Of a stretch of 64,000 bases of DNA, positions 940-27,236 are shown one piece after another (the first letter of the stretch is position 1; every line of letters starts with the position of its first letter). The translations under genes were made by a program, and so were the position numbers. The notes under the pieces were generated by a model. That model was given only the letters and a program-made list of their open reading frames with translations, was not told the origin of the DNA and did no database searches. Source of the DNA: a virus; the IMG/VR virus record IMGVR_UViG_3300028829_006090, positions 100,894 through 164,893 of that record, one strand, 5' to 3'.

Positions 940-3210
940 TTACAACCTAACCGGGTCTAGCACTTTAGGAACATATGATGTGCCCTCGTGCTTGCTACTG
1001 GATCCTAACTGGGCTGCCTCTAGGAATGACTTTTTAAGGCCAAACCCGGATAATCGTACTTTCCAGTCGGGATCGCTTCCGAGGACACCCATCGCTCTAA
1101 CCACGTGCGGCTCGAATCCGGGCCCCTCTTTATGAGTAACAATAGTCTCTACCCCGTTATCTTCCAAATCTTTCGCAATCTTCGACGTTACTTTAGTACC
1201 TATAGAGTAATGCATGGTAGGCTTCTCCAGGTACGTACCTACCGCCCGCTTTGGGCGCAAAGGGTTAGAATCCTTACGTGGAATGTACTCACTAGCTAGC
1301 TGAGTATATGGAACAATGTCGGATATAGCATATCCCATAACGCCTTCCGGTCGTGTGATTTTAACTTTATCGAAGAATGCTCTGGACAATACCTCTACAT
1401 TACGTCTATGCGAGGATACTCCGTTTTTTGTAAGGATCTCGTAGAACTTGTCTTGGAAGTACCGGCGGCCTTCCCCTAGCCCTTTCGCCTGCGCGATCTC
1501 TGCAGGGTTAGGAGTGCCGTCTGTGAGCACATCTCCAGAAGTCACCTCATCTCCCACCTTTACGGTAATATTCCGTGTACCTGGAGAGTATTCTGGCTCT
1601 CCGTCTATATACACGTACTTGCCTCCTTGAGGGGCGTCTACGATGCGTGTGACCTTGCCGTCTCGTTTAGACAGCACTGCGCCTCCCTTGAAAGTCTTAG
1701 GAACCTGGACGAATTGGTTTACCTCGTCGAACCCTGACACGTTGGACGTGTTCTCCCCTACCACTCCGCCTAAGTGCTTGGCGGATAGCGCGAGCTGCTG
1801 GGTCATTGGCTCTGATAATACTCGAGCAGACTCGATACCTATGTATGCTCCCATAGGCGGGAACTTATTCTGATCTCGTTTTCCGGAACACATCTGACAT
1901 ACGCCTTCCGGCATCTGGCAGGTTAGTAGTGACCGGATCATTACTCGCTTGCCTCTCAGGGTAGCGAGATCTTTACGGGATACGGCAGTATTTCTGGAGA
2001 TGCCTTCAGTGTCCCGAGAGATGACTGATCCTAGTATCTCGGGGTCATCTCCATCTACCATAAGACCTACCCCATCTGCCCCGCAGTCCTTCCCGGTAAC
2101 TCGAATGTGCTGCGACATAGCTGCGAGCTGTTTACCTAGAAATCCTGTCTTGGCCGTTGCGAACTGTACGTCTGAGTTGCTGACGATAAGGCCGTTCGCT
2201 AGTACGAACATATGATCGGGGTGATCTACTTCCAGGTCGTACGTAGGAGTTAGACCGAGGGGCTCCGGATCACTCTGCTTCTTTAAGAATCCTGCTTTGG
2301 TCCACTCGTCCTTATCTAAGACAAGGGTCTTGTCGCTAACTCTACAGCGAGTCGCCTCTCCGATTGGATTCATATCTCCGCCTCGGGTCGCCAGTATCTT
2401 GTGATCCGGGGTAGCCTCTATGTATATGGAGGCTCCGCTACCGAAGTGGTATCTGTAGACGACTCTTACGCCGTTGTAGTGCCTGTCGATAACCTGTACT
2501 GGGAATGTATCTCCGGCAGGGCCGGATCCGAGCACCCATTCGCCGGGCCCTATGTCCTCTATACGCTTAACAGACGTGTCCGCCATCCGCACCAGAGTGT
2601 TGGGAGACAAGCAGTATCCTTTTCGCGACGCGTACGACCCTGCCCAGAACTCCGGACCAGTCACTCCTTCTCCGTATCCGTGCATTCCAGGGATAGGTAC
2701 AGGGCGATCTCTGTGGTCTGCTACTAACATGTCGCCGAACAGGAGCTGCGTGAGCTGGGTCGGTGATCCGCGTAGTCCTTGCTTCACCATCTCCCCGTAT
2801 GCGTTTGGACGAGTCTCCAGTTCGGCTAGTAGCGTCTTCTGGATAGTCGGCATAGCCTTCTGCATAGTCGACATGATCTGCTCGTCCTTCTGCGCTGAAG
2901 TCAAGGCGTTGCTCTGAGAGATGGCCCGTATCTTCTCTTGCAGCTGCTTACGATATGCCTTTGTCTTCGGTGGCAGCCTAAGGTCTGTAAGCCGCAACGA
3001 GGATGTTCCTCCGTACTCAGTCGCAACTACCCGGGAGATATCGGAGAGTCTTTTCAGCACCGTCACGTAATCGTCCGGGTGCTTCTCTGCTAACTCTTGG
3101 AAGAACGCCGACGAAGTCTTCTTGTTTAAGACTCGTCCGGGCTCTCGCATAGACTCGGGGATCGCCTGGTCTATGAGTATCCTCCCTAGCGTTGTACGGG
3201 CAGCGGGCAT
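940..3210 (-). CDS. RNA polymerase beta' subunit, C-terminal part, with mini-intein
   Basis: Supplies the C-terminal part of the beta' (RpoC) catalytic subunit. The start matches the TTvGRil region that follows the active-site domain in bacterial beta'. Visible landmarks are the bridge-helix segment GSYASRKGY/SDVQFATAKTGFL, four zinc-type cysteines (C376, C431, C438, C441) with the bacterial C-x6-C-x2-C spacing, and a trigger-loop-like SEPMTQQLALSAKHLGG. A 146-residue intein occupies residues 200-345, so the spliced protein is about 610 residues. The ATG at 3210 was chosen; a TTG at 3246 would add 12 residues inside the upstream gene. The N-terminal half of beta' is in the gene ending at 6391, with three to four other genes between them. 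No alpha or omega subunit was seen. The assignment is firm; whether the enzyme is virion-packaged is unknown. Confidence 0.93.
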   Translation of the reverse strand: MPAARTTLGRILIDQAIPESMREPGRVLNKKTSSAFFQELAEKHPDDYVTVLKRLSDISRVVATEYGGTSSLRLTDLRLPPKTKAYRKQLQEKIRAISQSNALTSAQKDEQIMSTMQKAMPTIQKTLLAELETRPNAYGEMVKQGLRGSPTQLTQLLFGDMLVADHRDRPVPIPGMHGYGEGVTGPEFWAGSYASRKGYCLSPNTLVRMADTSVKRIEDIGPGEWVLGSGPAGDTFPVQVIDRHYNGVRVVYRYHFGSGASIYIEATPDHKILATRGGDMNPIGEATRCRVSDKTLVLDKDEWTKAGFLKKQSDPEPLGLTPTYDLEVDHPDHMFVLANGLIVSNSDVQFATAKTGFLGKQLAAMSQHIRVTGKDCGADGVGLMVDGDDPEILGSVISRDTEGISRNTAVSRKDLATLRGKRVMIRSLLTCQMPEGVCQMCSGKRDQNKFPPMGAYIGIESARVLSEPMTQQLALSAKHLGGVVGENTSNVSGFDEVNQFVQVPKTFKGGAVLSKRDGKVTRIVDAPQGGKYVYIDGEPEYSPGTRNITVKVGDEVTSGDVLTDGTPNPAEIAQAKGLGEGRRYFQDKFYEILTKNGVSSHRRNVEVLSRAFFDKVKITRPEGVMGYAISDIVPYTQLASEYIPRKDSNPLRPKRAVGTYLEKPTMHYSIGTKVTSKIAKDLEDNGVETIVTHKEGPGFEPHVVRAMGVLGSDPDWKVRLSGFGLKKSFLEAAQLGSSSKHEGTSYVPKVLDPVRL
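2176..2613 (-). other. Mini-intein in the beta' bridge helix
   Basis: This in-frame insert is 146 residues. It begins with Cys at the typical intein block A (CLSPNTLVRM), has block B with T-P-D-H (ATPDHKIL), and ends with the block F/G pattern TYDLEVDHPDHMFVLAN...GLIVSN followed by Ser as the first C-extein residue. Only about 60 residues separate blocks B and F, so there is no homing endonuclease. The penultimate residue is Ser instead of the usual His, a known but less common variant. Joining the flanks restores ARKG-Y-SD, which matches the ARKGLADT stretch of bacterial beta'. The insertion therefore sits in the bridge helix, and splicing should be needed for an active polymerase. Confidence 0.92.
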
Positions 3211-3214
3211 AGAG

Positions 3215-3772
3215 TTATCTAAACTTATTATCGATGATGTTACCAAACACGGTGCCGAGGAACGGCACTGCCTGCCCTACCTCTATCCCCCTATCCTTCC
3301 AAGTCCTACCGTCTATCTTACCTGTAAGATGTTTTGCTATAGACATGAGCTTGGCCTTTCTAGTAGGGTCCTTTTCAGACGTGGCGGCTTCGGTAAGCAC
3401 TTGGCGGCGAGCGATCAGCGCATTTCGGTGCTTTAGATTAGGTGCCCGAGTCCTTGCTTTTTTAGCATTGCCCTCGATATCTCCCTGTAGGATTCCTCTC
3501 TGGGAGTTGATAAAATCTATCTCTTCCTTAGAGATATCTGACGTGGGGTTGCCTAGAACGTAGTCTTTATATTGACCTAAGCTGGATATACCCTTCCGTC
3601 TTCCCTGCATGAGCTCCCCTGCTGCAAGACCAACGCCTGCTCCGACGCCACCTCCAATCAGATACTTGTTGAAGGTCCTATCGGACTCGGGCACGAGCTT
3701 GCGGGTTAGCGCGACTCCGATGACAGCGCCGAGCGGGGTCGTAACTAGTGATGGGTTGATTGGATCCTTCAT
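3215..3772 (-). CDS. Small glycine-rich membrane-type protein of the structural block
   Basis: Unrecognised protein of 185 residues. Residues 10-25 and 36-55 form two short hydrophobic stretches, the second a glycine zipper (LIGGGVGAGVGLAAGELM). The middle is charged and helical, and residues 160-180 hold another mildly hydrophobic segment (VPFLGTVFGNI). A GGAG ribosome binding site lies 9 bases before the ATG. It sits between the beta' fragment and a Pro/Met-rich protein. Similar glycine-zipper proteins recur in this window, which suggests virion or injected proteins that can enter membranes (inference). Confidence 0.7.
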   Translation of the reverse strand: MKDPINPSLVTTPLGAVIGVALTRKLVPESDRTFNKYLIGGGVGAGVGLAAGELMQGRRKGISSLGQYKDYVLGNPTSDISKEEIDFINSQRGILQGDIEGNAKKARTRAPNLKHRNALIARRQVLTEAATSEKDPTRKAKLMSIAKHLTGKIDGRTWKDRGIEVGQAVPFLGTVFGNIIDNKFR

Positions 3773-3777
3773 CTGGA

Positions 3778-4578
3778 CTACTCCGCGTACTGGCCGAGGG
3801 CCCGCAGTACTTGAATAAGGGCGTTATCTTGGTCGGCGGCCTCTAGCTGCTGCGGCATCTCCGTGGGGACCGGCATGGGCGGCAGTTCTGCCATAGGGGG
3901 AAGGGCCTCTGGCATGGGCATCTCGCCTGCGGGCGGAAGTGCGCTTAGGGAGTCCGGTGTCAGATTAGCGACGCTTGGAGGGAGCGCAGCCTCCCCTCCC
4001 TCTGGAACTGTCTCCGGAACAGAGACGCCCATGGTATTAGCCATCTGGACAAGCAGAGACTCTAGCTCATCGATGCGGGACTCCAGCTCCTTATTGGTGA
4101 CTCTGGAAGATTCCTCCTCCTTTGCAGGGGGCTGGGAGGCAGCGGCGGCCTCGATCAGCATCTGCAGATCCTGTGCCGACAGGGTAACAGGCTGTGCTTC
4201 CATGCCTGCCATCCCGGGATCTCCTGGACCGGCAGCTGGCATACCCATCATACTAGGGTCCATCGGAGGCATCGGCGGTGCGCCGCCCATCATACTAGGA
4301 TCCATCATGCTAGGGTCCATCGGAGGCATCGGCGGTGCGCCGCCCATCATGCTAGGGTCCATCGGAGGCATCGGCGGTGCGCCGCCCATCATACTAGGAT
4401 CCATCATGCTAGGATCCATCGGAGGCATCGGCGGTGCGCCGCCAGCTAGTGCGGGATCCTCTGCAGGTGGCAGGGCACCCATCTGTCCCGGTACTGCTGC
4501 TGCTGGCGCGGGAGCTGGGGGGGCGTATGCCTCCTTGGTTAGGTGCATTACTTTATTTAGTAGGTCTTTATTCAACAT
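3778..4578 (-). CDS. Pro/Met-rich repeat protein with coiled coil
   Basis: 266 residues with no recognised family. Residues 13-17 (LTKEA) match the Lys-x-Ala motif seen near the start of many neighbouring proteins. Residues 46-113 are near-perfect repeats of GGAPPMPPMDPSMM, low complexity and probably disordered. Residues 155-185 are a charged coiled coil (KELESRIDELESLLVQM), followed by another Pro-rich stretch and a short C-terminal helix. The layout resembles scaffold or linker proteins of virions, but this is inference. The opposite strand carries a long shadow frame produced by the repeats. Confidence 0.75.
   Translation of the reverse strand: MLNKDLLNKVMHLTKEAYAPPAPAPAAAVPGQMGALPPAEDPALAGGAPPMPPMDPSMMDPSMMGGAPPMPPMDPSMMGGAPPMPPMDPSMMDPSMMGGAPPMPPMDPSMMGMPAAGPGDPGMAGMEAQPVTLSAQDLQMLIEAAAASQPPAKEEESSRVTNKELESRIDELESLLVQMANTMGVSVPETVPEGGEAALPPSVANLTPDSLSALPPAGEMPMPEALPPMAELPPMPVPTEMPQQLEAADQDNALIQVLRALGQYAE
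4246..4443 (-). repeat. Tandem repeat coding for the Pro/Met-rich region
   Basis: Four tandem units of 42, 57, 42 and 57 bases fill this stretch; the 57-base units contain an extra 15-base block (one additional DPSMM-coding step). The units are almost identical at the DNA level, so they arose recently and are likely to vary in copy number between relatives. Confidence 0.9.
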
Positions 4579-4618
4579 CGGGATATCTTATGCCTCTTAG
4601 GTGATTCGGATATTGCTA

Positions 4619-5149
4619 TTAATTTGAAGTGTACCCCGATATAAATGCGGAAACATTTATTGTCGGCATTTGAGAAGCGCACTTCCATTTTCTGCGTGCC
4701 TTACATATTCTCTTATCAGGAGTCTTTGAGCAATCTATATTATGCATCTTGCGCTGTCCATCGGATCTAGCGCAGAAGCTCTTTCTTCTCTTAGACGCCG
4801 CGCCCCCCTTTTTAACTTTACCTGTGACAGGCGCTTTTAAGTTACTGCCTGGGTTTTCTCTCTCGTAAGACTTACGGCCAGCTTCGTTTAGGCCGCCTTC
4901 TCTATTCTGTCCCTTCTTACGAGTCCATGCAGGGCTCTTCTTTTTCTTATCCTTAGCCTCTTTGAATGCTGTCACGAACCTTACAAATTCGTTATCGCTT
5001 GAGGCTTTCTTCGCAAACTCCTCCAACTTATCTTCGGACATGCTGTTGGCGATCTCTTTTACCTTATCTGAAGCGTCCGGGCTCTCTCCTCGCTTATATG
5101 CTAGAGCCGCTCCAAAAAGTTTACGCTGATTTTCAGATTTAGCAGGCAT
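4619..5149 (-). CDS. Small basic protein, DUF3008-like start, C-terminal AFxxGY tag
   Basis: 176 residues from the ATG at 5149, which has a GGAGGAGA site at the right distance; an upstream in-frame ATG at 5167 lies inside the neighbouring gene and was rejected. The start PAKSENQRKLFGAALAYKRG resembles the small phage/bacterial DUF3008 family (recalled, not searched). The middle is Lys/Arg-rich (ARKSYERENPG, GKVKKGG), with four cysteines towards the C-terminus that could bind a metal. The last residues, SAFISGYTSN, match the AFxxGY tag found in other proteins here. Likely a small nucleic-acid-binding or virion protein; function unproven. Confidence 0.75.
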   Translation of the reverse strand: MPAKSENQRKLFGAALAYKRGESPDASDKVKEIANSMSEDKLEEFAKKASSDNEFVRFVTAFKEAKDKKKKSPAWTRKKGQNREGGLNEAGRKSYERENPGSNLKAPVTGKVKKGGAASKRRKSFCARSDGQRKMHNIDCSKTPDKRICKARRKWKCASQMPTINVSAFISGYTSN

Positions 5150-5150
5150 C

Positions 5151-6383
5151 TTACTTCTCTCCTCCATTGAACATATCTCTTGATATCCTTAGCTTAGATC
5201 CTGGGTCGTATCCGGGAAAATCTTCTCTCCGGCTGTTTATACCCACTGCATCTGCCAAGGACTGTACGAATGTGTTGGAGTTTACTCCTCGGCCTAGAAT
5301 GTTCTTCCATATGGGTGGGTACATGTAGGGATTCTCCCTTTCGTTATATCTGTAGGCTTCCCCAGCCTTTAGTACTTTACTTATGATGTCGTCGGTGCTC
5401 TTCCCTTGGTTGACAGATCTGCTGATGTGCGTCTCCCAGAACTTAGGTAACTTGGGATTCTCCTGTGTTGAGAAGTACTCTCGAAAAGCCTTTACATCGT
5501 TTCCGTAGTTCCTATGGTACCGGAGCCTGCGTCTGCTGAAGAAACTAGGTTTAACATTGTATGCTCCTACTATGATGGCAGGAGTGTCTCCGTACTTATC
5601 TACCGCATTGCCGAATCTATTGGGATCTTGTGGAACCAATATGAAGAACTGGTGTCTGCCTATAGGGGCCTTGCCGACGCCTGTGTCCATAGCGACTCTT
5701 CTCGATCCTATGTATATGCCGGGATTAAGGTTCTTGCTGTGTACTAGTTCCTTGCCTTTCTTCTTCGCCGCAGACTTGAATAGCTTCGTAGGCAGGCGGA
5801 TGTCGTTCCCTATATCGCCCTTGGGGAAATCCTGCCTGCGCTTATCTATGCCTGCCACGTCGGCTAAGGTCTGTGCGAAGGTGTTAGAGTTAGGCCGCAT
5901 TCCGAGGAGATTGGGAGCGAGGGCCGGGTAATACACTGGGCGCTTCGCTGTAGATTTCTCGTACGCCTTGCCTGCAGTCAGCATCCTACGGATAGTGTCG
6001 TCAATATCTTTCTTTGGGATAATGGGCCGGCTCAGTACGGGCTTCCAAAAGGCCTTAGACTTGGGGCTGCCTGAGTGTGTGTCTGTGTACTCTCGGATGG
6101 CTGCTAGATCGTCTGGCTCGTTCTGTCGGTACTTGAGACGGGGCCTGGATAGGACCCTTTCCCCCGGGACCCGGTATCCTCCGACCAATATTCCGCGATT
6201 GCCGTTGCCTAGATCGACGTCCAGTCCTTTGAACTTCTCGGGCTTATTAGGCACCATCACGAAGAATTGGTGGCGGAAGTAGGAGGGGTTCGCCGGGCTG
6301 TTCGCATTGGCTACTCGGCGCGTGCCTAGGTATATGCCTGGAGCAAGCGTTCCGGTTTCTATGAGTTTATCTTGCTGCTTCAT
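5151..6383 (-). CDS. Tandem-duplicated two-domain protein of unknown function
   Basis: 410 residues made of two homologous halves, about 13-200 and 221-405. Each half has the order PGIY(L/I)G(T/S)RRVA, RHQFF(V/I)(M/L)VP, G(G/A)Y, (R)LxYRxN, a helical segment, then NSNTF(A/V)Q(T/S)LAD and a DFP ending. The paired His (RHQFF) and NSNTF motifs recall papain/NlpC-like folds, where a Cys would be expected before the N-T-F; both copies have Ser there, so a hydrolase activity is not claimed. It follows the beta-beta' fusion gene by 7 bases and precedes the DUF3008-like gene. Function unknown. Confidence 0.75.
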   Translation of the reverse strand: MKQQDKLIETGTLAPGIYLGTRRVANANSPANPSYFRHQFFVMVPNKPEKFKGLDVDLGNGNRGILVGGYRVPGERVLSRPRLKYRQNEPDDLAAIREYTDTHSGSPKSKAFWKPVLSRPIIPKKDIDDTIRRMLTAGKAYEKSTAKRPVYYPALAPNLLGMRPNSNTFAQTLADVAGIDKRRQDFPKGDIGNDIRLPTKLFKSAAKKKGKELVHSKNLNPGIYIGSRRVAMDTGVGKAPIGRHQFFILVPQDPNRFGNAVDKYGDTPAIIVGAYNVKPSFFSRRRLRYHRNYGNDVKAFREYFSTQENPKLPKFWETHISRSVNQGKSTDDIISKVLKAGEAYRYNERENPYMYPPIWKNILGRGVNSNTFVQSLADAVGINSRREDFPGYDPGSKLRISRDMFNGGEK

Positions 6384-6390
6384 ATGTCTA

Positions 6391-9300
6391 CTATTCCAGT
6401 ATGGTGATGGGGTCGTCTATTGCTATCTTACCTGACCTATACGCCTTTCTTGCATCGGCCACGGTATTGAATACAGCGGCTGTCTTATCTGCAGGAGCCT
6501 TGGTAGCTAGATATAGCCCCTGCAGATATTCATTGGAAAGCTTATACGATGCCTGTCCTGATCGGGCGGAGATTAGATTGCGGTCCGGCATCATGCGGTC
6601 GACCACTTGGGATACCGCCTCGTCCGAGACAGGAACGGTGAATGACGCTGTGTCTCCGTCATAGTCCATGGCGAATGGCCCTACAATGGCCGGAGGCACT
6701 TGGACGGTAGATCCTTTTACGAGTACCGGCCAGAATCCCATGACACTGTACTTGTGTAAGGTAGGCGCCCGATTTAAGATGACAGGGCGCTTGGTGATAA
6801 CAGACTGCAACGACTTGTACGCTAGGGGTGAGTGATCTTTGACCGCTGTTGCAGCCTCTGTGGCAGGGACGCCCTGTCGCACAAGGTCTCGGATAACAAA
6901 CGGCTCGTATAGATTCCAAGCAAGCTTCTCTGGGATGCCCGCTTGGTTGAGTAGAAGGGACGGATTAGGTGCGACTACGCCTAGTCCCGACATATCGATA
7001 TTAGTCCCTAGAACTCGGCGCTGAATGAAGCCTGTCTTCGGACTTCCTTTTCCGAATATGTGCGAAAGGATGCCCTTTACGTTCTTCTGTACGAGCTGAT
7101 CCTTCTTCGGATCGGATACACCGATGAGAGCCTTGTAGCTATCCCATAGATCTCTTCGAGCATCGTTACGCATATCTGCCGGTAGTCCCTCTGTCTCGTT
7201 ATAGTCGGAGATAGACTCCACTAGAGACTTATACAGGTAGTTCGGGTCGGCCACCATCGTCATCCCTCCCTGTGCTGATATAGGACGGAACCGAGGCGGA
7301 AGTACCGGAACTCGGGTCATCATGAAGTCCGATGGCTTCACCTTGTTAGTTTCGAAAGCATGTAGGAATCGGAACTTTTTTACAGCATCGTCGCGCTTAG
7401 ATCTGATGCCGTGCTTTATCTCGTGCAGCGCCTTGGCCTTTTCTGCCTTGACGTCGATTCTACCTAGCTTGTCGGCTAGAGCGTCCTCTCCGGAGGCCAC
7501 TAAATCCTCCATCTCGGTTCTTTTTAGGCCCAATATACGCCGTATAGGGTCTACCATGATAGGGTTAGGCATGGCCGTAGGGAGGTCAATGTATGCCCAT
7601 CTGTCGCCGTTAGCCGAGCTTCCGGTAGCGTCGGGGTCAAATAGGCCTCCTGGGATGGGCTTAAGACCTTTTGCTGTATATGTATCACCGGTAGAGATCT
7701 TTCTATTTCCGGTAAGGTCTTTTGCCTGTTGGTTGGTCATAGAGAATATGTCGTCGGAGAACGCGCCTTCCGACAGATGTACTCCGCCTGCTCTGAGGAG
7801 GTCCTTAAACTTCTCGTAGACTAGCGGAGTCTTCGGCATGGTAGGGGTCTGTCCCAGCTTCAGCTGACGCCAGAACATATCGTTCTTCTGCCCCTTGATG
7901 AGCTTCATGTCCTTGAGGACCTCTGTCGCCCCGTGTGCTAAAAGAGCCTCTTGGTACATCTTGCCTAGGTGTTTAGCGCCTGTCTTGCCTCCCTTGGCCG
8001 GCTGGTCCTCTGCTGTGTACTTAGCCTGTGATCTGGACTTGCCTTTACCTTCGGACGTATGCTGCATCTTGTAGAAGTACGTCACTCCGGTAAATATCTG
8101 GGGGATCTTCTTCCCGGTTCTCGGATCTACTAGGTCCTCTCTATCGGATAGTCTATTCTTCTGGAGCTCGCTATGGGTGAACTCTATCATGTCTTCGTCT
8201 GAGAATCCCGGTAAGACGTAGGGCTTGCCTGTCTTCTCTGCGATCTTGCCTAGCTGGGCCTCTAGCTTCTGTGCCGGGTTAGTTCTGCTGACTACTCCCA
8301 GGGGAGACAGTATGACGTCCATCTTTCTGCCCTTAGGGTCCGTCGGCATCTCAGAGTCCTTGATCACCTTAGAGATTACGCCCTTGCCGCCGTGCCGCAT
8401 GGCCAGTTTATCTCCTACGCCCATGGGTATGTTCGTACGGACATTGATGTAGTACTGCTCTTTGCCTTCGGTCGCGTCTGTGACTACTCCGGGGTGTCTC
8501 TTCTCCCACAGCACTGCCTTGTTGGAGCGCATGCGGCGGCCAAGGGATCCACCGGCATGCGGATCCTGCTCGGACATCGCCAGAGCAAGCGGATCTCCAT
8601 ATCGTACGACCGATCCGGGCTTTATCATCCCCGTCGTTTCGTCGATCTTAGCGAGCTGCTCTTTATTGAAGGCGGCGGGGAAATTAGCTCTGAACTTATC
8701 CTTAGAGACAGACAGGTCCTTTTCCTTCTTGAACTTAGCATGATACATATGCTCTGACGTGAGCTTCTTAGCTGCCGTCTCGGATATAACAATGGCATCC
8801 TCGAACACCAGTCCGTCATAGTTCCAGTACGCTACGCGGAGATTAGTCCCGAGGGCCGCTACTCCCTTATCGCTGGTGAAGTTACTGGCTGCGAGCATGT
8901 CGCCCTTCTTCACCTTGTCTCCGGCCTTTACTAGGGCCTTGTTGCGGATGTACGTGGATCGGGCATACGGAAAGTTCTCGTACAGATCCACGGATCCCTC
9001 GGATCCGTCCGCATAGGTTAGGTCTACTCTATTCTTGCGGACGGCCTTAACTGTGGCGTCCCTAGAGGCGCGCACTGCTCCGAGATGGCCGCCTATGCGT
9101 CTCTCCATGCTGGTGCCGCTTCCGGGATCGGTAGTTCTTACTAGCGGAGCCTCTCTGCTCACCAGAGGAAGTGCCTGGGGCCCAAATTTCGAGCCCATTA
9201 ATAAACGCATTCCCTTATCTCCGGATTTCAGAGGAACCAGGTTAGCCCCATCGCTAAACATATCATCGTTGTTCGGTACGACGTAATCGATGTCTTCACG

Positions 9301-10839
9301 CTTTACCCATGCCATGCCCTTATTAGGCACCATCGCAATTACGTAGGGGTCTGTGTTCTTCTGGAATCCCGGCCATGTCAGGTTCTTTCTAGCGGCCTCT
9401 CGGATCCCTACCCACTTCTCCTTACCTGTACGGGCATCTATGAATTTAGAGTACAGCTGACGGTCGGGGCCTCTACGTACGTTGCGCGACATCTTCATAT
9501 CTACGCCGATCTTTAAGCTTTCCGGAGCACGAACTGGATCAATGTAATTCAGGTACGTGGGCTGTACGCCTCGGGCCTCTTTAGGGACAACATCTACGCT
9601 AGTCATCGCGCCCTCGCCTAGGCGTAAGATCCGCTGGTTCTGGTCGTACATGTCTAGCGGATTGATCTCTTCGATGGGCTGAGCCATCCCTGAGCTGACA
9701 AACAGATGCTGTACGTGTTTATCGAGAGGGGCGGTAGGTACTGCAGATATGTCTCCGTTCTTCTTTGAGACTTTCCATAGGATCTGTCGCAGCACTCCGT
9801 TCTGGTCGTTGGCTACCTTGTCACTAAGGAAGTCCGATATATCCCAGACGTCCTGGAACTCTAACGAATCCCTACTGTCGGAGTCTTCGTCTCCTTTGGC
9901 AACCCGCAGGATCTTCCCGGTAGCCGACATAATAGCCTCTGGAGAAGCGTTGGTGTGATCCTCTCCGAGAGTAACCCTAGTGACCCGGGGGTTGAGTCCG
10001 ATTTTACCGAACTCTTCAGTAAGTCCTTCCCGGACCGTGTCGTTGTATAGGGAGGACACTGTCGACCCTGTCTTCTGCTGTAAGAGCTGTGCAACTACAG
10101 GCCCTGCCTTGGCGTCCAGTGCTATGGGCGCTGCCGGTGCATCTGGCTCTGGGGCAACTGCGAATCCTTTTAGGAAGTTGACTGCGTAGGGAGACTTCTC
10201 TAAGGTCCTGTTCTTCTCCGCGATGTCTTTTCCCCACTGCGCCTCGATATCTTCGTGCTGCTTACCCATGGCCCGGAGGATAGGATATAGCGGAAGCTTA
10301 CGGTTCTTATACTTCATGTAGAAGAAAGACGTCGACGGCTCCATGTATATACGGAAAGAGGGCCCGGACCGTGGAATAGCGTTGAACTGGGCCTCTATGT
10401 TCGAGTCATCCGTTACGCGCGTGTATATTCCTGAGTTGAGACGAAGCTGCTTCGCTACAGTGTATTCCGTGCCGTTACGTACGTACGTGCCTCTGTCTGT
10501 AAGGTACGGCACGTTTATGATAGTCTTCCGGCCAGTTCTGCCTAGCGACTTGCCTGTCTCCTTATCGATAACCTCCCACCGACCTGTCACCTTATCGCTA
10601 AGTGTCCGGCCCTCTAGGATCGCGTCCTTCTGCTGGGACAGCGAGTATCTACCTTTAGGCTTAGCGTACGCGACGTCTGTGGCCTTTAGCATGTATCTGT
10701 CGTTTTCGGAAAACGCTGATTGCTCTACTGAAGACAGGACCTTCTTTCGAAGATCGGTTCGTACTGAATCGTAGTCCGTATAATTTAGGAGACCGGTACC
10801 ATCTGAGAAGTCCGGAGCAGGAGAAGGCATCTCAGGCAT
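6391..10839 (-). CDS. RNA polymerase beta subunit fused to N-terminal part of beta'
   Basis: 1482 residues. The first ~1000 are beta (RpoB): protrusion/lobe motif RNGTEYTVAKQLRLNSGIY at 121-139, NYDGLVFEDAIVIS at 673-686, GDKLAMRHGGKGVISK at 809-824, SPLGVVSRTNP at 845-855, and the C-terminal EALLAHGA helix at 964-971. The rest is beta': VLPPRFRPI at 1179-1187, NRAPTLHKY at 1356-1364, and the Mg-binding loop MDYDGD at 1391-1396 with all three aspartates (D1392, D1394, D1396) matching bacterial NADFDGD. The protein stops about 85 residues after this loop; the remainder of beta' is in the gene starting at 3210. No N-terminal beta' zinc domain was seen. The start ATG has a GGGAG site 12 bases upstream. 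Phage-encoded multi-subunit polymerase is certain; its class (virion or non-virion) is not. Confidence 0.96.
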   Translation of the reverse strand: MPEMPSPAPDFSDGTGLLNYTDYDSVRTDLRKKVLSSVEQSAFSENDRYMLKATDVAYAKPKGRYSLSQQKDAILEGRTLSDKVTGRWEVIDKETGKSLGRTGRKTIINVPYLTDRGTYVRNGTEYTVAKQLRLNSGIYTRVTDDSNIEAQFNAIPRSGPSFRIYMEPSTSFFYMKYKNRKLPLYPILRAMGKQHEDIEAQWGKDIAEKNRTLEKSPYAVNFLKGFAVAPEPDAPAAPIALDAKAGPVVAQLLQQKTGSTVSSLYNDTVREGLTEEFGKIGLNPRVTRVTLGEDHTNASPEAIMSATGKILRVAKGDEDSDSRDSLEFQDVWDISDFLSDKVANDQNGVLRQILWKVSKKNGDISAVPTAPLDKHVQHLFVSSGMAQPIEEINPLDMYDQNQRILRLGEGAMTSVDVVPKEARGVQPTYLNYIDPVRAPESLKIGVDMKMSRNVRRGPDRQLYSKFIDARTGKEKWVGIREAARKNLTWPGFQKNTDPYVIAMVPNKGMAWVKREDIDYVVPNNDDMFSDGANLVPLKSGDKGMRLLMGSKFGPQALPLVSREAPLVRTTDPGSGTSMERRIGGHLGAVRASRDATVKAVRKNRVDLTYADGSEGSVDLYENFPYARSTYIRNKALVKAGDKVKKGDMLAASNFTSDKGVAALGTNLRVAYWNYDGLVFEDAIVISETAAKKLTSEHMYHAKFKKEKDLSVSKDKFRANFPAAFNKEQLAKIDETTGMIKPGSVVRYGDPLALAMSEQDPHAGGSLGRRMRSNKAVLWEKRHPGVVTDATEGKEQYYINVRTNIPMGVGDKLAMRHGGKGVISKVIKDSEMPTDPKGRKMDVILSPLGVVSRTNPAQKLEAQLGKIAEKTGKPYVLPGFSDEDMIEFTHSELQKNRLSDREDLVDPRTGKKIPQIFTGVTYFYKMQHTSEGKGKSRSQAKYTAEDQPAKGGKTGAKHLGKMYQEALLAHGATEVLKDMKLIKGQKNDMFWRQLKLGQTPTMPKTPLVYEKFKDLLRAGGVHLSEGAFSDDIFSMTNQQAKDLTGNRKISTGDTYTAKGLKPIPGGLFDPDATGSSANGDRWAYIDLPTAMPNPIMVDPIRRILGLKRTEMEDLVASGEDALADKLGRIDVKAEKAKALHEIKHGIRSKRDDAVKKFRFLHAFETNKVKPSDFMMTRVPVLPPRFRPISAQGGMTMVADPNYLYKSLVESISDYNETEGLPADMRNDARRDLWDSYKALIGVSDPKKDQLVQKNVKGILSHIFGKGSPKTGFIQRRVLGTNIDMSGLGVVAPNPSLLLNQAGIPEKLAWNLYEPFVIRDLVRQGVPATEAATAVKDHSPLAYKSLQSVITKRPVILNRAPTLHKYSVMGFWPVLVKGSTVQVPPAIVGPFAMDYDGDTASFTVPVSDEAVSQVVDRMMPDRNLISARSGQASYKLSNEYLQGLYLATKAPADKTAAVFNTVADARKAYRSGKIAIDDPITILE

Positions 10840-11932: not shown

Positions 11933-12001
11933 TCTATGGGCTCTCGGTATCGTATATGAATGTTGAAAGGAGTTCGGGGCTGCACTGCCCTATGTCTAAC
12001 A

Positions 12002-12017
12002 TAGAACACGTATGCTA
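12002..12017 (-). promoter_or_regulatory. Promoter-like 16-bp motif, copy 1
   Basis: The minus strand reads TAGCATACGTGTTCTA, differing at one position from the consensus TAGCATACGTATTCTA. It lies in the 104-base gap between two minus-strand genes, about 70 bases before the ATG at 11932. That placement fits a promoter for the operon that contains the RNA polymerase genes. Confidence 0.5.
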
Positions 12018-12036
12018 AATTGTAACCGATGTATGT

Positions 12037-14834: not shown

Positions 14835-16305
14835 CAATGCTTGAGAGGAAGCCCTTGGCCATGTTACTGAGTTGTCTAGATTTGCTGTCTTGCTGTTTCT
14901 GTATCTCTTCCATTTTTTTGCGGCGGGCGGTGTTTAGCTCGTTTTTTGGCGCGTTCGCGTTGTACTCCTCTTTATCCTTAGCTGTAGGAGTTGGGTGCAT
15001 TACTTTAGGCGAGGGAGGGGCGTTATACTCCTGTTTGGCCTGACTGACCATAGCTCTGGCCGCCGCGACTGGGTTGTAACTACTGGCGTTGTACCCGGCG
15101 TCTAGTATCCTGTATAGTGCGGAGGACTGGTTAGGAGCCGGAGTAGGAGCCGGAGTAGTAGCGGGAGGCGCTGCCGGATGCGGCGGTGCTGGAGCCGGAG
15201 GGGCTGGCGCGGGAGTGGTAGCTGGAGGGGCTGGAGCCGGAGGGGCTGGCGCGGGAGTGGTAGCTGGAGGGGCTGGTGCAGGAGCTGGCTCTGGTGCGGG
15301 GGGAGGCGTTGGAGCCGGGGGCTCTGGTGCAGGAGGAGCAGCGGGAGCAGCAGCAGCGGGAGCAGCAGCAGGAGTATGAACAGGGACCATGTTTTTGTAC
15401 CTGTTCTCTAAGTCCGTTAGCCTATCCTGGGCTTTAGCAATCTGCGCACCGTAGTCCGTGCCGGATGATTCGAGCAGTCCGGCGGGCAGGGCTGTTCCGG
15501 CTTCTCTGAGACTATCTAGTGATTTTAGGTGACCGATATTCGCCTGTTCTTTTGCTACAGCTGCACGGTTACGGGCGATATTATCTACATTCGCGGTGCT
15601 TAGCCCGGGGGCAGTTATATTGAGGAGTTCTTTCTGCTCCGCCAAGGTTCTTTTGAATACATCCTTAGTGTAGGCGGTATGCGCAGCCGGTAACTGATTC
15701 TTCATAAGATCAGTCTTCTGCTCACTGGACAAGGCGGATTGATTATTAGCTAGCTCTAGGGCTGTACTGTACACGGCGGCCGGGGCTGTACTGATTGCCG
15801 CTATAGCCTCCGCATTCTTGTCCGGATCCTTCGCGAGAGCTTCTCGTACCTTGTCTAGATTGCGAGTAGCGATCGAGTCCTGTACGAACTTAACAGCTTC
15901 CGTTTTACCTACGCCGAAGAAGTCCATAACCGCGAAGGCAAGTGTACCGATAAGTGTGCCGGCCAGTGCGCCTTTACCGCCTCCTAAGAGACCTCCGATG
16001 ACTCCTCCGACGCCGGCTCCGCCCAGGGCCCATCCTATCTTCTGCGCAGTCTTATCTGACGATACCTGATACATGGTGTCGGACATGATAAGCGAGCTCG
16101 CCCATTGCCGAATCTGAGACAGCTTTTCCGGAGTATTATAGCCTGCTTTGTATGCCGCTCGGGTGAATTCGTCTCCCTCGACTTGAGGCACCATGTCTGC
16201 AGGTACCGGTGCTGGAGGCGGCGGGACCGCCCCTGTATTTGCCCATTTCTGGAAGAATTCCTCGGCCTCCTCGGCCGATAGTCTAGTATGAGGTAATTTG
16301 ATCAT
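14824..16305 (-). CDS. Large protein with membrane hairpin and Pro/Ala linker
   Basis: 493 residues. The N-terminal region contains AAYKAGYNTPEK, a match to the local GY tag. Residues about 90-135 form a glycine-rich hydrophobic hairpin (GGAGVGGVIGGLLGGG, GTLIGTLAFAVMDFFGVG). A helical region follows, then a long Ala/Pro-rich low-complexity linker (about 305-390) and a basic C-terminus. It is coupled by ATGA to the portal-like gene. The build suits an internal or ejected virion protein that spans a membrane (inference). Confidence 0.75.
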   Translation of the reverse strand: MIKLPHTRLSAEEAEEFFQKWANTGAVPPPPAPVPADMVPQVEGDEFTRAAYKAGYNTPEKLSQIRQWASSLIMSDTMYQVSSDKTAQKIGWALGGAGVGGVIGGLLGGGKGALAGTLIGTLAFAVMDFFGVGKTEAVKFVQDSIATRNLDKVREALAKDPDKNAEAIAAISTAPAAVYSTALELANNQSALSSEQKTDLMKNQLPAAHTAYTKDVFKRTLAEQKELLNITAPGLSTANVDNIARNRAAVAKEQANIGHLKSLDSLREAGTALPAGLLESSGTDYGAQIAKAQDRLTDLENRYKNMVPVHTPAAAPAAAAPAAPPAPEPPAPTPPPAPEPAPAPAPPATTPAPAPPAPAPPATTPAPAPPAPAPPHPAAPPATTPAPTPAPNQSSALYRILDAGYNASSYNPVAAARAMVSQAKQEYNAPPSPKVMHPTPTAKDKEEYNANAPKNELNTARRKKMEEIQKQQDSKSRQLSNMAKGFLSSIVGE

Positions 16306-18170
16306 TGTACAGGTACCTGTCCTTGTCGCGCGAGCTGCACACCTTGTGTAGCCGCTTGGTTTTCGAGTTCGCTGAGTCTAGCTTTGACTTGGGCATACAG
16401 TGCCTCGTCCTGGTGCTTAAGGTCGGATAGCGTCCTACGTCGTGTAAGCGGGTCCGCTACGATAAGCTCTTGGGCGATCTGGTCTGCGTTGGTCAATAGG
16501 TCGTCGATGGTTGCTCCAACCCCTGTAGCCCCTCCCGTTCCTGCGGAGGGAGGCATAGCGGCAGGAGGAGCTGCTGCTCCTGCGGGAGCACCGGCCTGCT
16601 GCTCTTGGGCAGCCATAGCGGCCTGCTCTTCCTGCATAAGGACCTGCTGTCCTGGGCCGGGCACGGTGACTGCTTGTACATTGGCCATCTGGTTGTCCAT
16701 CTGGCGCTGGCGCTCTTCCATCTCTTCGGCAGCCGCTTCTTCCTGATCGAGCAGCTTCTTACGCTCTTGGTCGTAGTCTATGCCGATTGTCTGTAGAGCG
16801 GTGTCTTCAGATATCTTACCCGCGGCGGCGAGCTGCATCTTGAGACTGCGGATCTCCGGATCCTCGTATAGGGATACTGGTTTGACGAATGCGCGGACAG
16901 TTTCCCAGCTTAGTAGATCGCCCTGCTTATTCACTACCCACGTTGCCCACTTGTTGAGCTGGTTAGCGAAATGCTGCCACGTCCGTTCGAACATCTTAAA
17001 GCCGATAAGAGGTCCTGCAGCTGCTTGGAATCCTGTAATGGATGACTTGTAGAACTCAGGAGGAATACCCATAGAGTGTAGGAGCCGCATCTCGAAGTGC
17101 TCCATGATGTCTACAGGTATAAGGCTCTTTGCCTCGCCTCCCAGTGTCTGGTACTCCAAAGGATAGGGGAGGAAGTTCCAGTCCGTAGGATTTCTACGGT
17201 GGCGCTGGATCATACCCATTACAGATCCGACAAAGTCCTTCATATTCATGTTGAGCATAGGATCCTTAGATCCGCCTGCGCTCGGAGGAGAGAACACGCG
17301 AAACGGCATAAGGTACTCTACCAGGATAGTCTCCACGTACTTATCCAACATCGTCACTAAGACGGCCGTTTCAAAGTCCGCCATGAATGGGGGAAGTCCC
17401 CATCCCTTAAGATTAGGGATAGAGCAGGCAGCTACTGGGAAGGACATGTGATATAGCTCGTCGTTCGCAAACTCGAACTCGCTTCCTTTACAGATAGCCT
17501 CTACGACCTCCCAAGGAGTGTCTTCAAGAAAGATGAGGTCTCCTCTAAGAACAGGGGCGGACAAAGAATCGTACTGTTTTAGGTCTATGCTGTACTTGGT
17601 GCGGCCTGACATCGGATGCTGATGGATGCGCATAAACTGCGGCGGCCAGCGGGTGATGACAGGCTTAGACTTCTCTTTAGGAAGCAGTGTATCTTCGTGC
17701 GGTAGCTGGCCCTTATAGGAGCAGGATGCGCACTCTCCGATGAAGCGGCAGTTCTCGAACTTAATCTTGTTTTTGAAATGCTTTAGAGGCGCACGCAGGC
17801 TACATCGGGGGCAGATAAGCTGGCGAAGGAACGGGCGGTGGATCGACGTGAATGAGTTCCCGAATGCCATGAAGTCGTCGCCTATTACAGCCAGCTCTTC
17901 GATCATGTCGAAGTTTTCGGCAATCGCATCGAGGTAGACCTTACGGCTACGGAAGTCCAGATCGTCTCCCTCTACATCCAGCTCGGTCATAAAATACCGA
18001 ACAGCCGAGGAGATAGACTGGGAGTACATGCCGTGATGCATCCACAGTTCCTCTGCCCATGCAAAGGTCTCTCGGATAGTCTTAGGATAGACTCGCCGGG
18101 TCAGCTTATTAAAGGGGGACGTTACATCCTTGTCCCATCGAAGGCCGGCGTCTTGTATACCTGAAGACAT
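16302..18170 (-). CDS. Portal-like protein with inserted zinc ribbon
   Basis: 622 residues. The N-terminal part (MYSQSISSAVRYF, VIGDDFMAFGNSFTSIHRPF) and the helical part near 390-420 (FYKSSITGFQAAAGPLIG, FERTWQHFANQLNKW) resemble dodecameric portal proteins through which DNA enters the head (recalled). Cysteines C120, C123, C147 and C150 form a zinc-ribbon pattern. The C-terminal 150 residues are Gln/Ala-rich coiled coil plus low complexity. It is translationally coupled on both sides (TAATG, ATGA) with structural-block genes. A terminase gene that would settle this is not in the window. Confidence 0.6.
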   Translation of the reverse strand: MSSGIQDAGLRWDKDVTSPFNKLTRRVYPKTIRETFAWAEELWMHHGMYSQSISSAVRYFMTELDVEGDDLDFRSRKVYLDAIAENFDMIEELAVIGDDFMAFGNSFTSIHRPFLRQLICPRCSLRAPLKHFKNKIKFENCRFIGECASCSYKGQLPHEDTLLPKEKSKPVITRWPPQFMRIHQHPMSGRTKYSIDLKQYDSLSAPVLRGDLIFLEDTPWEVVEAICKGSEFEFANDELYHMSFPVAACSIPNLKGWGLPPFMADFETAVLVTMLDKYVETILVEYLMPFRVFSPPSAGGSKDPMLNMNMKDFVGSVMGMIQRHRRNPTDWNFLPYPLEYQTLGGEAKSLIPVDIMEHFEMRLLHSMGIPPEFYKSSITGFQAAAGPLIGFKMFERTWQHFANQLNKWATWVVNKQGDLLSWETVRAFVKPVSLYEDPEIRSLKMQLAAAGKISEDTALQTIGIDYDQERKKLLDQEEAAAEEMEERQRQMDNQMANVQAVTVPGPGQQVLMQEEQAAMAAQEQQAGAPAGAAAPPAAMPPSAGTGGATGVGATIDDLLTNADQIAQELIVADPLTRRRTLSDLKHQDEALYAQVKARLSELENQAATQGVQLARQGQVPVQ

Positions 18171-20864: not shown

Positions 20865-20888
20865 AAGGGGCTCTCTGTTTATTGGAGT

Positions 20889-21542: not shown

Positions 21543-23045
21543 CTATGGTACTTCTACTAAGTGGATAGGCATCTTCTCATGCTTGTTCCACTTACCGCGC
21601 CAGACTCCGTCTCGATCCTTTATGAGCGAGCAGATGAAGTCGTTCTTACTGGGCCCTATGAGTAGTGTGGGTTTCCCGTCCACTTCCCGCATCTCCCAGA
21701 CATTCTCCAAATCTGCCTTGCCTTCTTTGATCTGTCCGTTGTCTGACAAGGATATGACTCTCTTGTCATGCCCTACACGGATATACACAAAACGCTTACC
21801 TGTAACTAAGGATGCATGCTTTGTTCCGGCGGCTACCTGGGCCTTTACGAATCCGTCTGGAACTAGTTCAATGTCCATGCGCTCGTGATTGTCCCACCTG
21901 CCTTTCCACCGGCCGCCAAGAGTCTCTTCATGGAGTACACAAGTAACAGAGTTGCCAACTATGCAGAGCTCGGGACCTTTATCCCCGTCCTGGACAAACC
22001 ATCCCTTCTCTAGCTGGGCCGCGCCTTTACCTATGGTGTTGTCTGGCAGCAGCTCCATCTTCCGCTTATCGTGTCCGATCCTGTGGTAGGTGAAGCGCAC
22101 GCCTGCGATCCTGCTGGCGGCTTCTTTGCCTTCTTCCGACTCCGGGGCAGGGTACTCGATCTTGCCGTCCCAGACGTCTTGTAGCTCCTTTAGGAACTCG
22201 AGGCACTTGTCCTCCATTAGGAAGCCGTGGATGCGGGGATTCTTGCCGGTAAGGGACCACTTCTGCATATTGCGATGCTGGAAGATCCGCTTATCGTCGA
22301 AATCGTGCTGACACATAGTGGCTCGCAGCGGGTGGATTAATCTCGAGGGCATTGAGTACCGCGTGCCGCAGATGTGCCACGCCATATGGAACGTGTCCTT
22401 GTCTCCATGAATGTGGGTGTAGTAGAAGTCGGAGTGCTCGTTGAGGTGCATTGTAGTATTGAGCTCCTCCCAACAGCGGCGCTTATCTACTACGATCTGT
22501 CCGGACTCGAACTCCGGCTCGTCTCGGTACTCTACGCCGCAGATCTCCCATATCTGTCTAGTGCGGGCCAGTCTGCCGTAGTCCGGCCAGAAAATAGCGC
22601 CTGTGTCCCTGTATTGCGGAGTGTCTAAAAGAACTTCCGGGTCGATAAGGGGTACGTTGTCCGCGTCTAGGAAGATGACCTCTTCGAAGCTAGAGTGTAT
22701 AATGGCGAACGGGTTGCACTCCCATCCGAACAAGCGGCGCGCCGGGTACTTTTTACGCACCTTGTACGCATCGATACATGTGACGTCGTATTTGCTGACC
22801 ATATCGCGCATGCGGTCATCCATCTCACATACTCCGAGATGCCAGAACTCTATAGGCAGCTTACATCCGTGGTGGCGAAGCATCTTTACTGTCACCCACG
22901 CGTTCGTAAAGTAGCGCGGGCCTCCTGCGCAGATAACGATGCCTCTGCCCTTGAACCGGTCTGCAGGGTATTCTTCTAGATCCGCCCTGGCGGTACGTAC
23001 CAGCTCTTGGTACTTTGCAATAATAGGGTTGGTAGCGGCCGCCAT
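21543..23045 (-). CDS. GT71/MNN1-like glycosyltransferase with two C-terminal repeat modules
   Basis: 500 residues. Residues 34-290 form a GT-A domain like the alpha-mannosyltransferase MNN1 family: GIVICAGGPRYF, LRHHGCKLPIEFWHLG and the metal-binding DAD at 127-129 (IFLDADNVPL). Residues 317-396 and 418-499 are two copies of a ~80-residue module (F.Y.R.GHDKR ... W.G.W..HE.M.I.L); a third copy ends the next gene. The enzyme should use a nucleotide- or lipid-linked sugar donor; acceptor unknown. Its ATG directly follows the stop of the neighbouring transferase, so the pair is co-expressed. Confidence 0.8.
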   Translation of the reverse strand: MAAATNPIIAKYQELVRTARADLEEYPADRFKGRGIVICAGGPRYFTNAWVTVKMLRHHGCKLPIEFWHLGVCEMDDRMRDMVSKYDVTCIDAYKVRKKYPARRLFGWECNPFAIIHSSFEEVIFLDADNVPLIDPEVLLDTPQYRDTGAIFWPDYGRLARTRQIWEICGVEYRDEPEFESGQIVVDKRRCWEELNTTMHLNEHSDFYYTHIHGDKDTFHMAWHICGTRYSMPSRLIHPLRATMCQHDFDDKRIFQHRNMQKWSLTGKNPRIHGFLMEDKCLEFLKELQDVWDGKIEYPAPESEEGKEAASRIAGVRFTYHRIGHDKRKMELLPDNTIGKGAAQLEKGWFVQDGDKGPELCIVGNSVTCVLHEETLGGRWKGRWDNHERMDIELVPDGFVKAQVAAGTKHASLVTGKRFVYIRVGHDKRVISLSDNGQIKEGKADLENVWEMREVDGKPTLLIGPSKNDFICSLIKDRDGVWRGKWNKHEKMPIHLVEVP

Positions 23046-25904: not shown

Positions 25905-27236
25905 CTACACGTTAGTGTAGTCCTCTAGTCGACGCAAGCGGCCTTGCTCGATATAATCCGCCACGAGCCGCTTCTCTGCTTCGAAGGGATGTCCACCCCA
26001 GCCGCCGTGCGTAAAGCCAACCAGATAGATCTCGTGATCCTCCCATCCCGGTTGATTGAGTGCCATGTATATGGACACCATGCCTGTACTAGGTGTATCG
26101 AATTTGCGTTGGTATGTTCTGAGCTCCTTATCCAGCTCAGCCCATAACTCCTTCGAGGGGTACTGTATCTGCACCTCCTCTCGAAACCTCTGTGCTTTTA
26201 CGATGTGACCGGACCGGTCCTTACCTGCGTAGTTAGACCATAGGTGAGGTCTAGAGAACCACGCCCGTTCTATCTCGTCTCCTACCCGACCTCCGGGGAT
26301 CAAGTACTTCTTCGGACTGCAGAACTTGGGCGCTGCGCCCTCTCCCGCATTGATGCAGGCCCATACTGTGGTCTTCTGTCCCATGCGCCTCTGCTCGTCT
26401 CCGTACCCTATGCAGAGGTTCATGCGGATGACCTCGTCCATGCTATTGATGACGCGGCAGTAGTTATCCAACTTGTTGTGGTTGTTAGCGACTATTACTA
26501 CCTTCTTCTTATCGGATGGTGGGTCTATCCATTTGCGAGCCTTCTTCAGCATATTGCCGTTTCCTCCGCCTGCCCACATATGGTAGGCGAAGGGCACTCT
26601 ATGTGCGCCGCCGAACTTATCCTCGATGCGCGCCTTATCCCAGCCCTCATCTACCAGGTCTCGGAAGAAGTCCAGGCCGCCTCGGTGCGATCCCAGGGAC
26701 CATATGTAGAAATCCCGCTTAGTTGCCACGGTTGTGATCTCCTTGTGATGCCGGGCCATCTTCGTCATCAGGCGTGGGCCAAACATCGTGCGGTCCACTT
26801 TACCACTAGCGGCCACCTCGAGGTACTTGTCTATATGCACCCATGCCGGGGAGAACTTGGATATACCTATTATGCCGTTAGCGATGACCTTGTTCTTGTC
26901 CCACCGCCGGTCGTCGGTCTGCCGGGTCAGGAAGAAGTCCGCCTCTATCTCATATTTGTCGAAGATGTCGGACATCGGACGTAGAGGGACAAAGTCGCAG
27001 TCAAAGTACCACCCTCCGTATCGCTTTAGAGCCGATAGTCTGAGGATGTCTGACTTGGAGCAGAACTGAGGAGCTATGTCGTAATATTTTTTATACTCCG
27101 GTAAGAGAACTTCCTCTCCGTGCATGGTGATCTCGTAGTCCGGGTTAAGGTCTCGGAACCATTGGATGCACTGCTGCCCGAAATCTGGGAGAGGCTTATC
27201 GCCTACCCATATGAAATGTAGCTTCTTAGGGATCAT
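25905..27236 (-). CDS. Bifunctional GT32-like plus GT29-like transferase
   Basis: 443 residues with two domains. Residues 1-230 are a GT32 (OCH1/DXD sugar-transferase) domain: IPKKLHFIWVG at the start and KSDILRLSALKRYGGWYFDC with DCD at 79-81. Residues 244-443 resemble the GT29 sialyltransferase-like fold: VVIVANNHNK, EVIRMNLCIG, TPSTGMVSIYMAL and IYLVGFTHGGWGGHPFEAEK. A related GT29-like domain stands alone in the gene at 29618. The fusion suggests two successive sugar additions. It overlaps the upstream methyltransferase by ATGA. Confidence 0.78.
   Translation of the reverse strand: MIPKKLHFIWVGDKPLPDFGQQCIQWFRDLNPDYEITMHGEEVLLPEYKKYYDIAPQFCSKSDILRLSALKRYGGWYFDCDFVPLRPMSDIFDKYEIEADFFLTRQTDDRRWDKNKVIANGIIGISKFSPAWVHIDKYLEVAASGKVDRTMFGPRLMTKMARHHKEITTVATKRDFYIWSLGSHRGGLDFFRDLVDEGWDKARIEDKFGGAHRVPFAYHMWAGGGNGNMLKKARKWIDPPSDKKKVVIVANNHNKLDNYCRVINSMDEVIRMNLCIGYGDEQRRMGQKTTVWACINAGEGAAPKFCSPKKYLIPGGRVGDEIERAWFSRPHLWSNYAGKDRSGHIVKAQRFREEVQIQYPSKELWAELDKELRTYQRKFDTPSTGMVSIYMALNQPGWEDHEIYLVGFTHGGWGGHPFEAEKRLVADYIEQGRLRRLEDYTNV

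Follow-up and report, generated by a model that had tools for sequence, protein, structure and literature searches.

The stretch of viral DNA analyzed here (the window; 64,000 nucleotides, bases 100,894–164,893 of the linear 164,893-bp IMG/VR record IMGVR_UViG_3300028829_006090) encodes on its minus strand the two large subunits of a multisubunit RNA polymerase (RNAP), distributed over two genes in an arrangement that differs from the cellular one (Table 1). The first product, chain A, is a complete β subunit that continues in the same reading frame into the N-terminal half of β′ (β′N); the second, chain C, is the rest of β′ (β′C), and its bridge helix is interrupted by a small intein. By sequence comparison, the enzyme belongs to a clade of large tailed phages that is widespread, comprising relatives of Salmonella phage Arash and deeper relatives, in which β–β′N is fused and β′C is separate.

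Architecture of the two chains

Over its whole length, chain A aligns first with E. coli β and then with β′ residues 1 to ~550, and it is matched by the NCBIfam models for β (E = 1.9e-85) and β′ (1.5e-55). It retains the catalytic lysines (GDKL...GGKG), the NRAPTLH motif and the MDYDGD loop, while the N-terminal zinc ribbon of β′ is missing from the alignment. Chain C corresponds to β′ from ~residue 572 to the end, has all four zinc cysteines as well as the bridge helix and the trigger loop, and would comprise ~610 residues after removal of the intein. This is in agreement with a first-pass annotation of the window, which had placed β and the MDYDGD-bearing part of β′ in one 1482-residue chain and had assigned the remainder of β′, with its zinc cysteines, bridge helix and trigger loop, to a second gene downstream. 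That annotation overlooked the intein. For chain C, the ATG at 3210, which lies 4 nt after the preceding stop and fits the relatives, is more likely to be the start than the TTG at 3246. Chain A contains no cysteine in its entire length of 1482 residues.

An AlphaFold2 model of chain C based on a 38-sequence alignment reached a predicted local distance difference test score (pLDDT) of 79, and its top matches in the PDB are T. thermophilus β′. The model is mostly confident outside the insert and of low confidence in the intein portion, and in it the insert cuts the bridge helix into residues 197–206 and 358–377. An earlier model from 10 sequences (pLDDT 50) was too poor and was discarded.

Profile searches of the whole contig yielded a PF00623 match at one place only and a single gene with PF04998, i.e., a single β′N part and a single β′C part. 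Another complete β′, which by the first-pass annotation would have refuted its reading, is absent from the 164.9-kb contig. A homologue of a sigma factor is encoded elsewhere on the contig, and a search for the α subunit (PF01193) found none on this possibly incomplete contig.

Table 1 Features of the RNAP locus and its surroundings, in window coordinates
Feature	Position	Strand	Basis or remark
Chain A, 1482 aa: complete β fused in frame to β′ N-terminal half	6391..10839	(-)	Alignment and profile matches
β part of chain A, ~residues 1–1030	7750..10839	(-)	Alignment to E. coli RpoB; junction approximate
β′ N-terminal part of chain A, ~residues 1031–1482	6394..7749	(-)	Stops just past the double-psi β-barrel, near E. 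coli β′ 550
β active-site lysine motif GDKLAMRHGGKG	8380..8415	(-)	Equivalent of E. coli K1065/K1073
Mg-binding loop MDYDGD	6652..6669	(-)	Chain A
Precursor of chain C, 756 aa with ATG 3210 as start	940..3210	(-)	β′ C-terminal half plus intein; 768 aa if TTG at 3246 is used
Bridge helix, N-terminal part, chain C residues 197–211	2614..2658	(-)	Alignment and model
Mini-intein, 146 aa	2176..2613	(-)	Cys1, TxxH, C-terminal Ser-Asn then Ser; Hint match
Bridge helix, C-terminal part, chain C residues 358–377	2116..2175	(-)	Alignment and model
Span with four zinc-ligand cysteines of β′	1888..2085	(-)	Only cysteines in either extein chain
Trigger-loop segment SEPMTQQLALSAKHLGG	1765..1815	(-)	Alignment; conserved His kept
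Intervening gene (A–C), 410 aa	5151..6383	(-)	Weak DUF3750 match
Intervening gene (A–C), 182 aa	4619..5167	(-)	DUF6321/DUF3008
Intervening gene (A–C), 266 aa	3778..4578	(-)	Pro/Met-rich repeats; no family match
Intervening gene (A–C), 185 aa	3215..3772	(-)	No family match; stop 4 nt before chain C ATG
Gene directly upstream of chain A, 361 aa	10847..11932	(-)	Same tight gene run; no family match
Portal protein homologue (Arash gp204)	16302..18170	(-)	Upstream of RNAP, likewise in Arash and D69
Palindrome of the TTAGCATACGTATGCTAA family	12001..12018	.	68 bp upstream of the gene preceding chain A

The intein in the bridge helix

The insert interrupts the bridge helix at RKGY/SDVQF, and its downstream junction reads VSN/SDVQF. 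It has the features by which inteins were recognized, with Cys at position 1 (Cys or Ser being expected), a block B TxxH, and a C-terminal Asn that precedes Ser (Cys, Ser or Thr being expected). It scores above the cut-off of TIGR01443 and below that of the N-terminal model TIGR01445, and it resembles solved DnaE inteins, the matched one of which likewise terminates in Ser-Asn. No endonuclease domain was found in the window intein. Among the 25 inteins delimited in the clade, the residues corresponding to its T68, H71, G141 and N146 are at least 90% conserved. The nearest relatives have a clean empty site (RKGF/SDVQF in locus L093, RKGF/SDTQF in L111), and locus L138 carries a larger, endonuclease-bearing intein of 385 residues at the same position.

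Relatives and gene layouts

A single-sequence scan with chain A recovered no relatives, and profile scans were needed; three such scans of viral contigs listed 26, 14 and 80 loci, the last of them yielding at least 447 relatives. Among annotated phages, tblastn identified the two-chain layout in four isolates, namely Arash, where the chains are gp206 and gp216, and the Vibrio phages D69, D148 and D181, and the profile survey identified separate A and C genes in ~75 loci. The layout is common to a widespread clade, and not peculiar to this genome. Where both genes lie in one locus, they share a strand, and C always follows 0.5–6 kb downstream of A. Arash and D69 share portal, capsid and tail-region proteins with the window virus, as well as the gene order portal, A, C, capsid; Arash additionally shares the terminase and the sigma factor. 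A two-sequence profile detected a sigma homologue in all 15 related genomes searched (15/15), most of which were missed with Pfam PF04545.

The number of chains varies within the clade. A and C form one open reading frame of ~2,000–2,100 residues in 17 loci, which constitute a sister clade (cited here as L109–L135). Conversely, chain A is cut once more within β′N in L027, L028, L029, L041 and L033 and in the partial loci L034 and L043, and on all four contigs searched for such loci (4/4) C is located elsewhere. The β′N split in L027, L028 and L033 stands as a true third piece, with no intron there. Three other apparent breaks in chain A are not gene fissions: those in D181 and L035 are group I introns, and that in L048 is due to a break in the frame immediately after an intein. 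Some loci deviate individually. In L042 the N-terminal 220 residues of β are a separate gene on the opposite strand, in L032 chain C is ~25 kb from chain A and on the opposite strand, and chain C has C-terminal extensions of ~750 residues in L047/L078 and ~300 residues in L096.

Inteins and introns in the clade

The 25 inteins occupy 16 RNAP positions in 16 loci, and several of them interrupt catalytic motifs. In chain C they are found in the bridge helix and in the trigger loop, where the position of SEPMTQQLALSAKHLGG is an intein site in L058, L059 and L060; among those in chain A are inteins that separate the two catalytic lysines, i.e., at the position of GDKLAMRHGGKG, in L059, L111 and L138. 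The RNAP of L058 alone carries five inteins. Two boundaries in this locus are uncertain, that of the chain A insert behind the Mg loop, which has an odd first residue, and that of 'C-bridge-4', which leaves several bridge-helix residues missing. Inserts of 166–445 residues near β 227–255 in L080, L112 and L086 are without intein ends and were not counted; they are probably added domains. Group I introns were identified in D181 and L035 only among the loci scanned, and inteins otherwise predominate.

A LAGLIDADG_3 match is present in 18 of the 25 inteins. Chain C inteins at different positions are more alike to one another than to chain A inteins, and the best match of the window intein is an L058 intein at a different position (139 bits), which together suggest that inteins may have moved between positions within the gene. 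A second intein, with a LAGLIDADG endonuclease match, lies in the homologue of the Arash structural protein gp222 in L009 (14489–17080, minus strand; contig 94489–97080).

Order of fusion and fission

A mixture-model tree of 42 sequences resolves the single-chain and split forms as sister clades (Shimodaira–Hasegawa approximate likelihood ratio test, SH-aLRT, 92 and 94, respectively), and the β–β′N join is common to both. In both outgroups, E. coli and Cobetia phage Carin-5, β′ is unbroken. Given these outgroups, fusion followed by fission requires two events, against three for break, fusion and re-fusion, and parsimony therefore favors, without proving it, that an ancestral single-chain β–β′ enzyme broke after the β′ barrel. 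The fuse-then-split order that the first-pass annotation had proposed is retained to this extent.

The support that separates the two clades is moderate, and a FastTree analysis of 98 rows, which otherwise concurs, places the long-branched L032 outside both clades; both points weigh against the favored order. The reverse order, in which β′ broke first, as in jumbo phages, cyanobacteria and YerA41, before β was fused to β′N and the single-chain clade re-fused later, has a smaller though still appreciable chance of being correct. Breaks behind the β′ barrel recur in unrelated lineages (PMC7598289; YerA41), and with the two clades being sisters the root forces neither order; the additional event that it demands, since β′ is whole in E. 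coli and Carin-5, counts against it. An artefact of assembly or sequencing, which for the break was also a concern of the first-pass annotation, has a negligible probability as the source of either the fusion or the split. Although the window species is represented by one contig only, the same plan, with the same break, recurs in four isolate genomes (Arash, D69, D148 and D181) and in dozens of independent contigs, by which this explanation is already refuted.

Proposed virion packaging and function

Mass spectra of virions have been reported for Arash. In particles purified by sucrose gradient and analyzed by liquid chromatography–mass spectrometry, chain A (Gp206) was the most-counted protein with 3516 spectra, and chain C (Gp216), the sigma factor Gp10 and the helicase Gp217 were represented by 1210, 467 and 1148 spectra, respectively (PMC10585845). 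Spectra per length, a crude measure, amount to 2.3 for Gp206, 2.0 for Gp216, 2.0 for Gp10 and 2.4 for Gp217, which is consistent with roughly equal amounts of the four proteins in the particles.

We consider it probable (roughly 0.78) that the window RNAP is a bacterial-type, sigma-dependent enzyme that is packaged in the virion for early transcription, with A and C forming one core and C being spliced; for the window virus itself we infer pairing, activity, packaging and splicing. Chain C would be translated as a precursor, from which the mini-intein must splice out of the bridge helix for the enzyme to work. Chain A, which provides β, β′N, the Mg loop and the lysines, would then pair with chain C, which provides the bridge helix, the trigger loop and the zinc site, to form one catalytic core. 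By analogy with Arash, this core would be packed into the virion together with sigma, and the packaged enzyme would start early transcription on the injected DNA.

Several observations weigh against this assignment. Length-normalized spectral counts are crude, and they derive from Arash, a relative with ~30% identity. The linear contig may be incomplete, in which case α or another RNAP could be encoded outside it, and the window intein has Ser where the penultimate residue is usually, if not obligatorily, His. Besides early transcription, the authors of the Arash study mention carry-over of abundant proteins as an alternative (PMC10585845). The RNAP would in that case be a late, non-virion enzyme made during infection, an explanation that we regard as unlikely; ribonucleotide reductases and other infection enzymes were likewise detected in the Arash particles (PMC10585845), however, chain A has the highest spectral count of all proteins in the purified particles, the length-normalized counts of chain C and sigma match, and the RNAP genes sit within the structural gene cluster. 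An inactive chain C, in which the Hint insert is a degenerate intein that does not splice, appears less likely still. The minimal size without an endonuclease, the Ser-Asn end in place of His-Asn and the TIGR01445 score below cut-off would fit such decay, but Cys1, TxxH, the terminal Asn and Ser+1 are all intact, the open reading frame runs through both exteins, and the contig offers no alternative chain C. A packaged, spliced and sigma-dependent RNAP keeps the preference stated above.

Comparison with known polymerases

The Arash RNAP (gp206 and gp216, sigma gp10; PMC10585845) has the same β–β′N/β′C plan, the same portal–A–C–capsid order and a homologous sigma factor, but is only ~30% identical to that of the window, is without an intein and has more genes between A and C. 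The Arash paper labels gp206 'beta' and gp216 'beta prime', and its text contains neither 'split' nor 'fus' (PMC10585845). RNAPs of phiKZ-like jumbo phages (PMC7598289, PMC7824862) are likewise multisubunit enzymes with no α detected and with a β′ break after the Mg-binding barrel, and one version is packaged in the virion, whereas packaging in the window virus is assigned by the Arash analogy. They differ, however, in having a split β, two RNAP sets and no sigma, compared with the intact and fused β, single set and sigma factor of the window virus. According to the first-pass annotation, both subunits are split in the known multisubunit RNAPs of phages; this is contradicted by Cobetia phage Carin-5, with whole β and whole β′, and Yersinia phage YerA41, with whole β and split β′.

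Whole-subunit rpoB–rpoC fusions occur in Helicobacter and Wolbachia (NF007172, NF011417). They join β and β′ in the same order as in the window, but contain the whole of β′ in one chain, for which the single-chain sister clade, and not the window RNAP, is the counterpart.

The mReC phages (Weinheimer and Aylward 2020, PMC7481178) are likewise tailed phages in IMG/VR with β and β′ alignable to cellular ones, and recognition by cellular profiles, an mReC mark, also holds for β and β′ of the window. In contrast to the capsid PF07068 and terminase PF03237 described for mReC, neither of which is matched by the window virus, its capsid homologue is without a Pfam match and its terminase matches PF05876. 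In the main text of PMC7481178, 'split' and 'intein' are absent, and fused/fusion is used for crAssphage only.

Inteins in eukaryotic and archaeal RNAPs (PMC1635734) likewise occupy several highly conserved positions near the active site, but in RPA2/RPB2/RPC2 and archaeal A′/A″, whereas those described here are in phage β and β′, at 16 positions, among them sites in the bridge helix and the trigger loop. The group I/II introns in virion RNAP β′ genes of jumbo phages (PMC12350094) indicate that phage RNAP genes are also targets of self-splicing elements, but at the RNA level. In the literature searched, which covered only a minor part of the subscription papers and no bioRxiv preprints outside PMC, neither the fused-and-split plan nor its single-chain sister form was found to be described, and the same holds for inteins in phage β/β′; this is not proof of novelty.

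Genomic surroundings of the polymerase

The four genes between A and C were described as structural-type in the first-pass annotation, which is not borne out by the family matches, limited to DUF6321/DUF3008 and a weak DUF3750 match. The TTAGCATACGTATGCTAA palindrome, allowing at most three mismatches, occurs in 12 copies on the contig and in none of the shuffles; other copies include those at window positions 20888, 32820 and 39129. The copies are mainly intergenic, often at most 70 bp upstream of minus-strand genes, and one of them heads the RNAP gene run. The palindrome was not present in the relatives' loci searched. It is a possible operator or promoter. Two glycosyltransferase genes (Gly_transf_sug with DXD motif; mannosyltransferase-like) lie near structural genes, at 25905–27236 and 21543–23045 on the minus strand.

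Implications

The mobility of introns is one cause that has been put forward for the cutting of phage RNAP genes into pieces (PMC7598289). The present clade shows one-, two- and three-chain enzymes, group I introns and up to five inteins per polymerase side by side. Inteins in the bridge helix and trigger loop, and likewise those in the lysine motif and the Mg loop, could conceivably keep the polymerase of the clade inactive until they are spliced, which we regard as a long shot; if true, splicing would be a checkpoint that blocks the phage RNAP before packaging or until a given stage of infection. The inteins in the bridge helix are in any case natural tests of how far the moving core of an RNAP tolerates such elements. 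With the stages of the clade side by side and the two-chain form present in virions of a cultured phage, both the route by which the genes were broken and a minimal, packaged, sigma-dependent RNAP become testable.
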